Positions 6,662-36,111 of a DNA stretch of 37,620 nt are shown here, piece after piece. This DNA comes from Balneolaceae bacterium (GTDB lineage Bacteria > Bacteroidota > Rhodothermia > Balneolales > Balneolaceae). The stretch covers positions 1 through 37,620 of the forward strand of contig JAFIFB010000054.1 in assembly GCA_020832285.1 (NCBI GenBank), given 5' to 3'. Numbering within the stretch: position 1 is the first letter of the stretch; every line of letters starts with the position of its first letter. The notes under the pieces are model-generated. The model did no database searches, was not told the origin of the DNA, and worked only from the letters and a program-made list of their open reading frames with translations. The translations under genes and the position numbers were made by a program.

Positions 6662-7089
6662 GACCTAATGGGCCGCTGGAAAAAGCCATTCGCAGGCTGT
6701 TGGGAATGGGTGGCAGAACAGGAAGCTTAATGAACAACCTGCCAGAGTTTGAGCGGAGCGAAATCCTGGCAGAGTTGTGTGTTATGGAATGATTGACTTT
6801 AAGGCACTCTTTGGCTGTGTATTGCGACTCTTGCCGCATAGCGATCCCTAAGGACATGAATCCGGAAAAACACCGGTTACTCTGCCAGGTCGCTGAACAA
6901 ACAATCTCATCAATTTACCCAGAACAATTCCCGTATCTCCTTAAAATTATCGATATCGTACTAAAGGGTGTAGTTTAAAAACAATTGAGGCTGATTTATA
7001 AGATTTTGCGGTAGTCAGGTTATTCCATTTTTCGATATAGAATGGAGTTCTTTTCGTGTTGCGATATAAATCTGGACCGTTCAGATATC
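6662..7089. repeat. Repeat-bearing spacer: diverged copy of a dispersed palindromic element
   Basis: No credible gene lies in this 428-bp spacer. It contains a stem ACAACCTGCCAG (6734-6745) / CTGGCAGAGTTGT (6766-6778), perfect apart from one bulged base. A 25-bp block at 6824-6848 matches 32794-32818 with one difference. A hairpin CCGG (6862-6865)/CCGG (6873-6876) leads into a CAGGTCGCTGAA block, also shared with the 32.6-32.9 kb cluster. The order of blocks is the same in both places, so this is a diverged, partly deleted copy. The stretch 6980-7089 shows nothing specific. Confidence 0.75.
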
Positions 7090-28648: not shown

Positions 28649-29280
28649 AACTGATCGGTTTGATTGTTAATAATCAGCAGAAGGTCTCCCTTTTTGAATT
28701 CAATTTCGACTCTTTTTTTTACCGTTTCATTCGAACTGCCATCCTGAATTCCGTTTTCAAGAATCCCATTGGTCAGTGGATATTTCAGCCCTTTTGTTGT
28801 AATGCCCTCAACTCTGCCCGAGAGAGGAAAAAGAGAGACAGATGTATTTAGAGGGAAATTTTCTCTGAAGGGCGATTCAATCACCCGGATGGTAGAAAAG
28901 CGGTCTATTATCCGGATGGATGAAAAAACCGGGTTGAACTGAAGCAGAACTGATAAATTCTTCAGTGTGTGATCCAATCGTTTCCCCGTTGCGCCGTAGA
29001 TAGTGACCTCCGATACCCCACGTTTTTTTGCATAGCTGAGTGCTTTTTCCAGGTCGTTGGTTTCCTGGTCGGGTTCGTGGACCAGTTCTGCGATTTCCAC
29101 ACCTGTTGGCTCGTAGCTGTCCAGGTCGCCGATTATAACATCAGGACGCAGGCCAAGGATCCGGGCCGTTATAGCACCTCCGTCGGCAGCAATAAAAAGC
29201 GAAGCTCGGTTCACTTCTTCACTGATTTGCTCTTTCAGTGGGTGTTCACCGTCGCAAAGAATAATTGCTTTCACCTGCAT
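28645..29280 (-). CDS. thiN: Thiamine pyrophosphokinase
   Basis: The 211-residue protein catalyses ATP + thiamine to AMP + thiamine pyrophosphate, the salvage step to the active cofactor. Diagnostic motifs appear in order: AADGGAITA (31-39), PDVIIGDLDS (46-55), DQETNDLEKAL (71-81) and YGATGKRLDHTLKN (95-108). These carry the catalytic aspartates and the nucleotide-binding loop; the C-terminal half is the thiamine-binding beta-sandwich. It is the first gene of a two-gene unit with a sodium:solute symporter (4-bp overlap). ATG 29280 lacks a Shine-Dalgarno. I looked for a TPP riboswitch upstream and saw none of its conserved blocks. Confidence 0.93.
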   Translation of the reverse strand: MQVKAIILCDGEHPLKEQISEEVNRASLFIAADGGAITARILGLRPDVIIGDLDSYEPTGVEIAELVHEPDQETNDLEKALSYAKKRGVSEVTIYGATGKRLDHTLKNLSVLLQFNPVFSSIRIIDRFSTIRVIESPFRENFPLNTSVSLFPLSGRVEGITTKGLKYPLTNGILENGIQDGSSNETVKKRVEIEFKKGDLLLIINNQTDQF

Positions 29281-29720
29281 TATTCACAAAAAATAGTTGA
29301 TTGGGTTTATTACTCTATCCAAAAGAAAGATACTTCAAACTAAAATTAATACTTAATACAACGTATTTTGACACTGCGAAATTTTCCGCCTCAGGCGGAT
29401 GCGTTGTCTCAAAAATAGTATACTCAACGTCCGACAGCAGTCGGACGATTCCGTAACTATTTCAGAGACGCCTTGCCCACAACCAAATTTCTTGGTGAAT
29501 AAAGCAGGTTCATAAAAAAAGGAAACCTTTACGGTATAAAACCGTTATTTTTAAAGAATAAAAAAGTTTGCGAACAAAGCTTAGAAGCGCCATTTTCGAA
29601 ACTTTATTTTTCGAGACCGAAAATTCCGGTCTGCTAAAATCAGCAAATAAACAGAAGAAAACCAGTTGTCAATTGCAGGCAGCATTTAAAAAATAACCAG
29701 GCGAAGCGCTAAAGAATTTT
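29281..29720. repeat. Gene-free spacer with nested palindromes
   Basis: The 440-bp spacer separates divergent thiN and the DHH gene. TCCGCCTCAGGCGGA (29385-29399) is a 7-bp-arm palindrome. Downstream, three arms nest about one centre: GTCTC (29406-29410)/GAGAC (29465-29469), AAATAGT (29413-29419)/ACTATTT (29456-29462), and CGTCCGAC (29428-29435)/GTCGGACG (29440-29447). Further on are ACGGT...ACCGT near 29533-29547 and AGACCG...CGGTCT near 29614-29632. The rest is A/T-rich with no gene recognised. Confidence 0.75.
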
Positions 29721-31938: not shown

Positions 31939-32635
31939 TCTGGATCGATCAGCGGGAGGTTGTGATCGATTCCAGCCGATAATCCACAAGTATTAAGTCA
32001 AATATGAATCGTCGGTTGAAACCTGTCAGCACCCACCGGATCTGACAGCGTTGGATTATGTGCGATAGCGCCTTATATATGCTTTATCCTAAGTTACCGA
32101 CGCTGAAATCCCGACTGCTCGGGACGGAAAAGCACCGGGAATGCTGTCAGGTCTGAGCCGTCATTTTGAGCTTAACTCTACACTTGAAGTAACCCAAATC
32201 CCAACATTATCCATAAAAATGAGTTCTGATTTTTTATGGGTAGTAAATTGATGTTTCTACAGGAATTATTGTGGGTAGTTATTTTAGAGAGAAGTTAAAT
32301 CCCACCCTCGAGGAGTGTGTTTGCCAAGCCCTGAAAGGGTGCCATAACATAGCCTCTACTACGCGAAAGTCCCTATTACAAAGTTTCAGAGCATAGTAAT
32401 GGTTCGAAGAGCAGGCCAGGGCACAGTGAACCAGCCTACGCTAAAGCTTCGGATGGCAGGCACCGCGAACGACGCCCTGGGATAAAATGTAACATAAATA
32501 CACCCCGAGGCGAGTATTTTTGAAAAAGCAGCACACAGTTTCGAGGGTTTTTCATTGGAATCCGGGAATGATAAATCGTTGCGGAATTCATTCAGGTGGG
32601 AACAGCTACGGATCGGCAAGAGGGGATTCCAGGAA
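31939..32635. repeat. Gene-free spacer with palindromic repeat elements
   Basis: No credible gene is present. TCCCGA (32109-32114)/TCGGGA (32119-32124) is a perfect hairpin with a 4-nt loop. A larger dyad CCAGGGC (32416-32422)/GCCCTGG (32474-32480) encloses a secondary hairpin-like core (CCAGCCTACG ... CGGATGG). It is preceded at 32329 by ccctgaaagggtg, a motif that often accompanies CCAGGGC/GCCCTGG palindromes in Bacteroidota intergenic repeats (general knowledge). An open frame across it on the minus strand follows the repeat and is judged spurious. Confidence 0.65.
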
Positions 32636-32945
32636 CCCTTGAAAAACGCAAGGGCACTCTTGTCGCACAGCGATCTCTATGGGGCAGGTCGCTGAATTAA
32701 ACAACCTGGCAGAGTACGTAGCGAAGCGGAGTTCCTGCAAGAGTTGTGGATTGAGGGCTTGGTTGGCTATAAGGCATTTCACAGCAGAACGTCGCGACTC
32801 TTGCTGCATAGCGATCCCGCGGGTCAAGGTTCTTTGATTCGAAGCGCTAAACACGTACATCTCGACTCTGCCAGGAGCCCGGAAAAGCGCCGGCCACTCT
32901 TGTCGCACAGCGATCTCTTTGGGGCAGGTCGCTGAATAATCAACC
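32636..32945. repeat. Dispersed palindromic element with 240-bp-spaced direct repeats
   Basis: A 43-bp block at 32655-32697 recurs at 32895-32937 with a single base change, offset exactly 240 bp. Each copy is preceded by a short hairpin whose arms differ but pair: CCCTTG (32636-32641)/CAAGGG (32649-32654) in one, and CCGG (32879-32882)/CCGG (32890-32893) in the other. Each block also contains CAGCGA/TCGCTG arms. Between them lie ACAACCTGGCAG (32701-32712) / CCTGCAAGAGTTGT (32734-32747) and a 25-bp block at 32794-32818, both also present in the copy at 6.7-6.9 kb. Confidence 0.8.
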
Positions 32946-33033: not shown

Positions 33034-33993
33034 TCATTGCTTTTGAAGCGGGCGCTCTTTGAAATCTTCATCAAAATAGTTGTACCATTTCCGGAAGGGG
33101 CGGAAAGCGTTGTCGGGATCGAACGGGCGTTTATATTCGCTCTGTTTGCACTCCTCGCTGCAGCATCCGTCCATGATTTGTGCCCCTTCTTCTGAGCTGA
33201 CAAACAGCTTGTTACACTCCATATTTGCACAGTTTATGTAACTGTCGGCCGGTTTTCCGGTAATTTCACAGCGGGCAATCGGCTGCAATGTTTCTTTGTT
33301 TACAGGTACCACGAGGCGGTCATCAAATACAAAACATTTCCCTTTGAAATATTTGCCGCCTTCCTCTTTGGCATATTTCAGAATGCCGCCGTGGAGCTGG
33401 TTTACATCGCCCCAGCCCTTTTTCTTCATCAGAACCGAAAACTTTTCACAGCGGATGCCGCCGGTGCAGTACATCAGCACTTTTTTATTTTTTGGGATTT
33501 CTTCTTCGGCCTCTTCGAGCCACTTGGGAAAATCGTAAAAATTTTCCACATCAGGTGTAATTGCCCCCTCAAAATGCCCCACTTTTGACTCATAGTTGTT
33601 TCTTATATCGATCATCACGTAATCTTCACCCGACTCCATCATTTTTTTCCATTCGGAGGGGGGGAGATATCTGCCGCCCTCTTTTGGATCGAGTCCCTCT
33701 TCATAAATCGCTACAATCTCATCGCGCACTTTACAAACCAGTTTGGCAAAGGGGATGGCATCGTGCTCATCGGTTTTGAATTCGGTGTCTTCGAACCCGT
33801 CAATCCCCCGGAGATAGTTACGGTAGTTTTGAATCTGTTCGGGGGTGCCTCCCAATGTTCCGTTTATTCCCTCTTTGCTGATGTAAACCCTGCCTTTGAG
33901 TCCGCTCTCCTTCAGCCACTTTTTGTGCTTTTTGCAGAAAGTTTCGGGATCTTCAACCGGTGTGAAATTGTAGTACAAAATAACCTCGTACAT
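33034..33993 (-). CDS. trhO: tRNA uridine(34) hydroxylase, rhodanese-domain (TrhO/YceA family)
   Basis: The 319-residue protein has an N-terminal acylphosphatase-like/UPF0176 domain (GRVYISKEGINGTLGGTPEQ, 34-53). A central rhodanese domain carries MYCTGGIRCEKFS (active cysteine C176, second C182), preceded by VMIDIRNNYESKVGHFEGA. A C-terminal cysteine-rich segment (NCANMECNKLF, CCSEECK) probably binds zinc. This order is diagnostic of TrhO, which hydroxylates U34 of certain tRNAs with oxygen on the way to 5-methoxyuridine or 5-carboxymethoxyuridine. It is monocistronic and divergent from the T9SS-sorted protease across 97 bp. ATG 33993 has no Shine-Dalgarno. Confidence 0.94.
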   Translation of the reverse strand: MYEVILYYNFTPVEDPETFCKKHKKWLKESGLKGRVYISKEGINGTLGGTPEQIQNYRNYLRGIDGFEDTEFKTDEHDAIPFAKLVCKVRDEIVAIYEEGLDPKEGGRYLPPSEWKKMMESGEDYVMIDIRNNYESKVGHFEGAITPDVENFYDFPKWLEEAEEEIPKNKKVLMYCTGGIRCEKFSVLMKKKGWGDVNQLHGGILKYAKEEGGKYFKGKCFVFDDRLVVPVNKETLQPIARCEITGKPADSYINCANMECNKLFVSSEEGAQIMDGCCSEECKQSEYKRPFDPDNAFRPFRKWYNYFDEDFKERPLQKQ

Positions 33994-35899: not shown

Positions 35900-36098
35900 T
35901 TTTGCCCGGTTGTGAATTTTGCTGTCAATGAATTTGTGCACTATTCTCAGATACCGCAATATTTTGTATGTTCCTGTCAGATAACCAGAAAAATTTCGCA
36001 GTGTGAGAATACGTTGAATAAAATTTAAATCTTTGTTTTATGTAACTTGCTGATGGACATAGCAATAAAGCCAATCTACTATTTTTTGTGAATAATGC

Positions 36099-36104
36099 AG
36101 GGGA
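36099..36104 (+). promoter_or_regulatory. Shine-Dalgarno that decides the start of the FG-GAP protein gene
   Basis: AGGGGA lies 7 nt before ATG 36112. An upstream in-frame GTG at 36088 has no such site and would prepend eight polar residues to the signal peptide, so ATG 36112 is preferred. Confidence 0.6.
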
Positions 36105-36111
36105 ACAGATC

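Follow-up and report, generated by a model that had tools for sequence, protein, structure and literature searches.

The window, a 37,620-nt stretch of DNA from a Balneolaceae bacterium, contains several copies of a short hairpin-forming repeat. Three of its hairpins had been named in an original prediction made from the sequence alone (CCCTTG-AAAAACG-CAAGGG, CCGG-AAAAGCG-CCGG, and CCGG-AAAAACA-CCGG), and direct reading found each of them in place (Table 1). They are real, but each is only the apical part, or tip, of a unit of 45 to 72 nt. When the copies are read together, the unit consensus is NCNAC-K-CTNNNAG-(tip)-CTNNNAG-GTNGN, with K being T or G. NCNAC/GTNGN forms its outer stem and CTNNNAG/CTNNNAG its inner stem, K is a single bulged base between them, and the tip varies among copies; CCCTTG/CAAGGG and CCGG/CCGG are tips of this larger unit. 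The prediction had also described ACAAC/GTTGT stems next to the hairpins that keep most of their pairing. These stems are present, and the outer and inner arms pair at 12/12 positions in one copy (6734-6778) and 11/12 in the other (32701-32747) in the alignments to our covariance model; they are not neighboring stems, however, but the same unit on the opposite strand. Likewise, the "conserved block" (CTCTTGTCGCACAGCGATC...) said to follow the hairpins is a separate double mini-hairpin of about 22 nt that lies inside the unit's arm.

Table 1. Repeat units, apical stems, and inserts in the window.
Feature	Position	Strand	Evidence
REP-like unit ACAAC-T-CTGCCAG-tip-CTGGCAG-GTTGT	6734-6778	-	12/12 arm pairs; R1 60.3 bits, E 2.1e-16
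Partner REP-like unit GCGAC...GTCGC of inverted doublet 6734-6893	6824-6893	+	R1 22.7 bits
Double mini-hairpin insert in arm	6835-6854	-	Pattern, <=3 mismatches
Apical stem CCGG/CCGG (originally predicted)	6862-6876	+	Direct reading
Second-lineage REP-like unit CCAAC-G-CTGTCAG-tip-CTGACAG-GTTTC	32018-32054	-	R1 16.0 bits, E 0.012
Truncated REP-like unit without 5' outer stem	32629-32692	+	R1 13.5 bits, E 0.075 for 32629-32662; rest by direct reading
Apical stem CCCTTG/CAAGGG (originally predicted)	32636-32654	+	Direct reading
Double mini-hairpin insert in arm	32664-32683	-	Pattern, <=3 mismatches
REP-like unit ACAAC-T-CTTGCAG-tip-CTGCCAG-GTTGT, one arm mismatch	32701-32747	-	R1 59.1 bits, E 4.9e-16
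Broken 5' arm of GCGAC-type unit, with mini-hairpin insert 32805-32824	32794-32824	+	Direct reading; insert by pattern
GCGAC-type REP-like unit, mini-hairpin insert 32904-32923 in 3' arm	32862-32932	+	R1 17.2 bits, E 0.0052; insert by pattern
Apical stem CCGG/CCGG (originally predicted)	32879-32893	+	Direct reading

The covariance model, R1, was built from 17 units and scores two units of the window at 60.3 and 59.1 bits and four weaker ones at 22.7 to 13.5 bits. Within the inverted doublet at 6734-6893, 45 nt separate the two units, and the partner carries a double mini-hairpin in one arm. A sequence nearly identical to the second-lineage unit at 32018-32054 adjoins genes for REP-associated tyrosine transposases (RAYTs) at three loci in other places (L232, L235, and L249). 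Folded singly as DNA, five of six window segments gave z-scores of +0.08 to -1.09 and the sixth (6733-6776, clipped) gave -2.32; of two typed units with strong DNA folds, one from another genome (G020) reached -6.38 and one letter-identical to 6734-6778 reached -4.19. It is the family of copies, rather than the single folds of the window (mostly weak alone), that raises the element above chance.

Searched by BLASTN at E<=1, the source genome (G000; 5.33 Mb in 130 contigs) returned 72 matches to one of two window regions and 58 to the other, and the sequence is therefore a genome-wide dispersed repeat. With R1, the same genome and threshold gave 73 matches, representing 72 non-overlapping sites, 41 of them clustered and 31 solitary. 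Neighboring sites no more than 200 nt apart are inverted relative to each other in 21 of 22 pairs. Fourteen of the 22 pairs have the order -+, and spacers of 45-46 or 71 nt separate the members of 11 of those 14; seven pairs have the order +-, with 7-14 nt between. The layout in this genome is one of doublets and tandem doublets, as in REPINs. The sites are also intergenic: none of the 72 falls inside an open reading frame (ORF) of at least 200 amino acids, although 60.5% of positions drawn at random from the same loci do, and the corresponding values are 8/72 versus 66.6% for ORFs of at least 150 amino acids and 22/72 versus 74.1% for those of at least 100. The flanking ORFs are divergent in 3, convergent in 10, and tandem in 21 of the 34 distinct gaps that hold sites.

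Of the 58 genomes searched, 24 of the 28 in the genus (the source genome included) and 2 of the 30 others have R1 matches at E<=0.01; with 104 candidates scored in each genome, the copy numbers from this search are lower bounds. Units of a second lineage, mostly with K = G and CTG[AT]CAG arms, are also present in the source genome, for example at C106:35033, C64:22395, C115:34013, and window positions 32018-32054.

Scanning loci of Y1 transposases with R1 led to the RAYT genes. In 40 further Y1 regions, the places fetched being a subset of those found in the genomes, matches at E<=0.1 appeared in six (L183, L194, L197, L199, L218, and L221), and two divergent RAYT genes (L218 and L194) have units on both sides. 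A profile made from these two RAYTs (A3) identified relatives in 25 of the 58 genomes at E<=1e-15. The relative in the source genome (C125:42692-43321; E 5.9e-71) has one in-frame TAG stop and is flanked on both sides by doublets, among them the two units with the highest scores in that genome; its locus (L230) has six R1 matches of 51.6-62.6 bits.

We then scored the linkage of unit and gene with a regular expression for the unit, requiring at least 10/12 pairs within 450 nt of the gene, which replaced a perfect-pairing scan that gave many false hits. Of the 16 clade loci that match best, 15 have a unit adjoining the RAYT and 13 have units on both sides, with L225 and L232 having units on one side only; at L234, whose contig ends nearby, the regular expression found none and a partial match scores 17.9 bits. 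Among 14 chosen RAYT/Y1 control loci a unit occurs at one (L061), and around 28 further Y1 loci the expression found none in 161,442 nt on both strands. Generic Y1 transposases were considered as the mobilizer and rejected: of 35 Y1 loci, L061 has two matches and L164 one at chance level (E 0.21). The L061 gene is an ordinary Y1 gene with a second-lineage unit nearby. No RAYT of that CTG[AT]CAG lineage is among the three A3 matches in the draft assembly of the source genome.

Arm sequence follows RAYT lineage, as judged from a RAYT tree on which the loci were sorted into six groups: the arm classes CTTCAAG, CT[TGA]CGAG, CTGCCAG, and CTG[AT]CAG, one mixed class, and five loci outside the clade ("other"). 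Classes were assigned from the units beside the genes, that of L234 from partial sequence. The six groups require 5 changes on the tree, the minimum possible, versus 13.1 when shuffled, and none of 200 shuffles was as low. Within the 16 clade loci alone, the five arm classes require 4 changes. The CTTCAAG (TCA) class taken alone is not one clade: it requires 2 changes, and 7 of 500 shuffles require no more.

The clade RAYT is predicted to be an HUH (Y1) protein. It carries the HUH motif in the form NHIH, and its predicted structure (mean pLDDT 87.3) finds as its best PDB match 4ER8, the Escherichia coli RAYT (TnpAREP) with a REP hairpin (E 6.5e-06; TM 0.57/0.71; 16% identity over the match), the only match at E<=0.001, followed by the IS608/ISDra2 transposases. 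A search of PDB sequences with A3 gave no match at E<=0.1. The sole NCBIfam match at E<=0.01 is NF047646, REP-associated tyrosine transposase, with scores of 46.2 (L218), 44.8 (L194), and 53.2 bits for another RAYT (L222), all below the cut-off of 80; the match to PF01797 is also below its cut-off. Other RAYT-like genes, G000:C83 (L222), G000:C115:78861 (L250), G005:C6 (L251), and G000:C18 (L066), are flanked by quite different palindromes, and the genus thus seems to harbor several RAYT-repeat systems side by side.

Central to the original prediction was that the stems vary in sequence yet stay paired, which was to be checked with a covariance model and a covariation analysis of collected copies. 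Pair counts on an early alignment (A2; the 18 rows of A1 less one badly aligned row) were biased, its rows having been picked for pairing, and were set aside. We instead used a collection (A4) made with a sequence-only model, R2, built to avoid selecting for pairing, although its seeds were themselves picked by structure; A4 holds 113 matches, 102 of them distinct, from 72 sources chosen among the available loci. Across the 102 distinct rows, 87.2% of 1450 cells form standard pairs, versus 73.1% when shuffled and 25.6-45.0% when the partners are slid, and double changes account for 225 cells, where shuffling gives 70.5 and sliding no more than 61. None of 500 shuffles, controls that keep the relatedness among rows (copies of one lineage share ancestry), reached the observed covariation score of 0.242; the shuffled value is 0.076. 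Two of the five measures were not decisive: as many double-changed pairs (10) arose in 35 of 500 shuffles, and as many further pair types (35) in 42. The compensatory variation is thus real, above both shuffled and slid backgrounds with the relatedness left in by the shuffles. By type, 1244 cells are Watson-Crick, 20 are G.T, and 186 are other; G.T accounts for 20 of 206 non-Watson-Crick cells versus 34 expected under equal mismatch types. Since G.T pairs are not enriched, DNA is favored over RNA as the selected form.

Two positions, the bulged K and the one just ahead of the 3' inner arm, mostly carry the same base although they do not pair with each other. In 70 units beside RAYT genes the combinations are GG in 49, TT in 14, and other in 7 (63/70 matched), and in 76 rows of A4 they are TT in 58, GG in 14, and other in 4 (72/76 matched; Fisher p 1.4e-11, with rows that are not independent). 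The bulge base has changed at least three times on the RAYT tree, and one locus, L224, is mixed (2 TT, 2 TG). The sequence AC-K-CT...AGG is mostly carried by both arms. The tag GT[AG]G stands immediately 5' of the hairpin in 0 of 78 units and was also absent from -6 to +2; the repeats are therefore REPIN/RAYT-like in their working but not canonical REPs. From the sequences, we infer that the repeated AC-K-CT...AGG replaces the GTAG guide or marks CT cutting sites. A wider proposal, which we hold only tentatively and rate as rather doubtful, is that a RAYT lineage without a GTAG guide reads the duplicated non-pairing AC-K-CT...AGG, in which K is matched between arms and changes with the RAYT, and that a mini-hairpin at palindrome centers may share the same single-strand machinery.

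Taken together, the hairpins are best explained as a non-GTAG, REPIN/RAYT-like population of mobile DNA rather than as an RNA element. We consider it highly probable (about 0.88) that the hairpins are a REPIN-like population, that is, inverted doublets of a bulged DNA hairpin of about 45-50 nt placed between genes, mobilized in trans by a cognate RAYT, an HUH single-strand transposase of the IS200/IS605 type. Direct support comes from the unit itself, its doublet layout and intergenic placement, the linkage to RAYT genes, the way arm class tracks RAYT lineage, and the covariation. Each RAYT lineage has units flanking its own gene. The RAYT would bind the folded single strand of the unit, with the bulged K and the duplicated AC-K-CT...AGG as putative sites of recognition or cutting; the arms would stay paired because only foldable copies get moved. 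The elements are apparently mobile, as judged from their sequences. Because the cognate RAYT of the source genome has an in-frame stop, the population there may now be inactive.

That the hairpins act instead as RNA (terminators, mRNA stabilizers, or a small RNA), with the fold kept for that role, is very unlikely. With few sites between divergent genes (3/34 gaps), many would be transcribed, and excerpts of PMC3733652 propose such functions for REPs elsewhere. Against this, no Rfam match in the window reaches gathering scores, G.T is not enriched, and position is not kept: a match lies near 2 of 14 genus orthologs of the window gene at 33034-33993 (those of the source genome and G007) and 0 of 9 outside the genus, some of these loci being cut by contig ends. 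An RNA role would also leave the RAYT linkage unexplained. Of the two functions originally offered for the fold, a transposition or recombination substrate is thus favored by the units adjoining the RAYT gene in 15/16 loci, whereas RNA is disfavored by the G.T count (20/206). Templated correction of imperfect palindromes can yield paired changes without selection, and the paired changes here are nearly all Watson-Crick, as such correction gives, in arms that are short near-palindromes. Template switching could act together with RAYT mobilization, but as mutation alone, with no selection for the fold, it is an unlikely source of the pattern: the two non-pairing positions share the same base rather than complements in 63/70 units next to RAYT genes, at least three changes of the bulge base fall on the RAYT tree (L224 being mixed), and arm class follows RAYT lineage. 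The claim that paired changes imply selection rather than simple decay was accordingly too strong, given possible templated correction and shared ancestry of the copies, even though the changes themselves are real.

In outline, a bulged stem in which both the outer and the inner boxes pair also resembles an integron attC site. The consensus attC boxes are RYYYAAC/GTTRRRY, however, which the outer boxes ACAAC/GTTGT, read by eye, do not fit, and the arrangement as inverted doublets beside RAYT genes argues against both attC sites and the ends of ordinary IS or MITE elements, making this identity hardly credible. A search of a plasmid collection gave no match.

The REPIN-like reading invites comparison with known systems. 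The REPIN/RAYT system of Pseudomonas fluorescens, as described in excerpts of Bertels and Rainey (2011; PMC3116915), shares inverted doublets, tandem clusters, extragenic placement, a doublet cluster beside each RAYT, and compensatory hairpin changes; the present system differs in belonging to another phylum, lacking the GT[AG]G tag, and having bulged 12-pair arms with small inserts nested in them. Another such system is TnpAREP subclass 2.6, mostly from Bacteroidetes, whose RAYT genes, according to excerpts of PMC6006769 (2018), are flanked by "atypical" non-GT[AG]G structures with copies elsewhere in the genome. The same excerpts give its motif as NH[LIV]H, as in the NHIH here, and YIH[QN]NP, where we find YIHRNP, so that the motifs agree only partly. 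Its structures were weaker and found by hand, whereas the arms here are strong and covarying. No word beginning "Balneol" occurs in the main text of that paper. For the E. coli enzyme, the available part of PMC8266576 reports that the bulge of the REP stem is required for activity, that cutting is at CT dinucleotides, and that GTAG is needed, the last being absent from the units here. Literature searches found no paper with both Rhodohalobacter and repetitive extragenic palindromic, nor the string GGGATCCCTTCGGG, which does not imply absence from print. REP elements are widespread in bacteria and their spread is still poorly understood, as stated in that part of PMC8266576. One genus with four clear arm classes and one mixed class that go with RAYT lineages, and with no GTAG tag, should allow the recognition rules to be read from the differences, and a few proteins and oligonucleotides would suffice to test them.

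The second element, the double mini-hairpin, lies in four arms of the window as a segment of about 22 nt (Table 1). It consists of two 11-nt DNA mini-hairpins with variable stems, CCC-nnn-GGG-A-T-nnn-nnn-nnn, the last nine bases folding on themselves. A search with the pattern CCCNNNGGGATNNCTNYGNN gave 43 matches in the source genome versus 3 for a reversed control and 164 versus 0 in another genome (G021), and 23 of 40 genomes contain a match; because a palindromic site is matched on both strands, these counts exceed the number of sites. Of 35 mini-hairpins in one set of loci, which is rich in loci collected for REPs, 12 lie at the center of a longer inverted repeat (0.57% at random); in a second set, from 40 regions of two genomes, 10 of 52 do (42 of 4000 at random). 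In the examples compared, arms with a mini-hairpin are 20-25 nt longer than arms without, and insertion is the likely origin of the mini-hairpins in the arms. Such nesting suggests that palindrome tips serve as insertion points, and mosaic repeats could be built up in this way. Elhai et al. reportedly described in 2008 small dispersed repeats of cyanobacteria, about 20 nt long and perhaps mobile. The likeness lies in that size and possible mobility; here there are two 11-nt mini-hairpins with variable stems in another phylum. Small dispersed repeats are also treated in PMC2884548, as seen in excerpts. One mini-hairpin copy (L363, 1499-1518, - strand) lies in the apparent D-loop of a truncated tRNA beside a tRNA-Val, where ARAGORN calls only the tRNA-Val.

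Other repeats occur nearby. A dispersed AT-rich repeat with CGATATTCGAT-type arms adjoins some REP clusters (L002, about 1390-1470; L012, about 1770-1870), and the window itself contains a 116-nt inverted repeat, at 29270-29385 and 35990-36105, whose arms are 82% complementary with 6604 nt between them.
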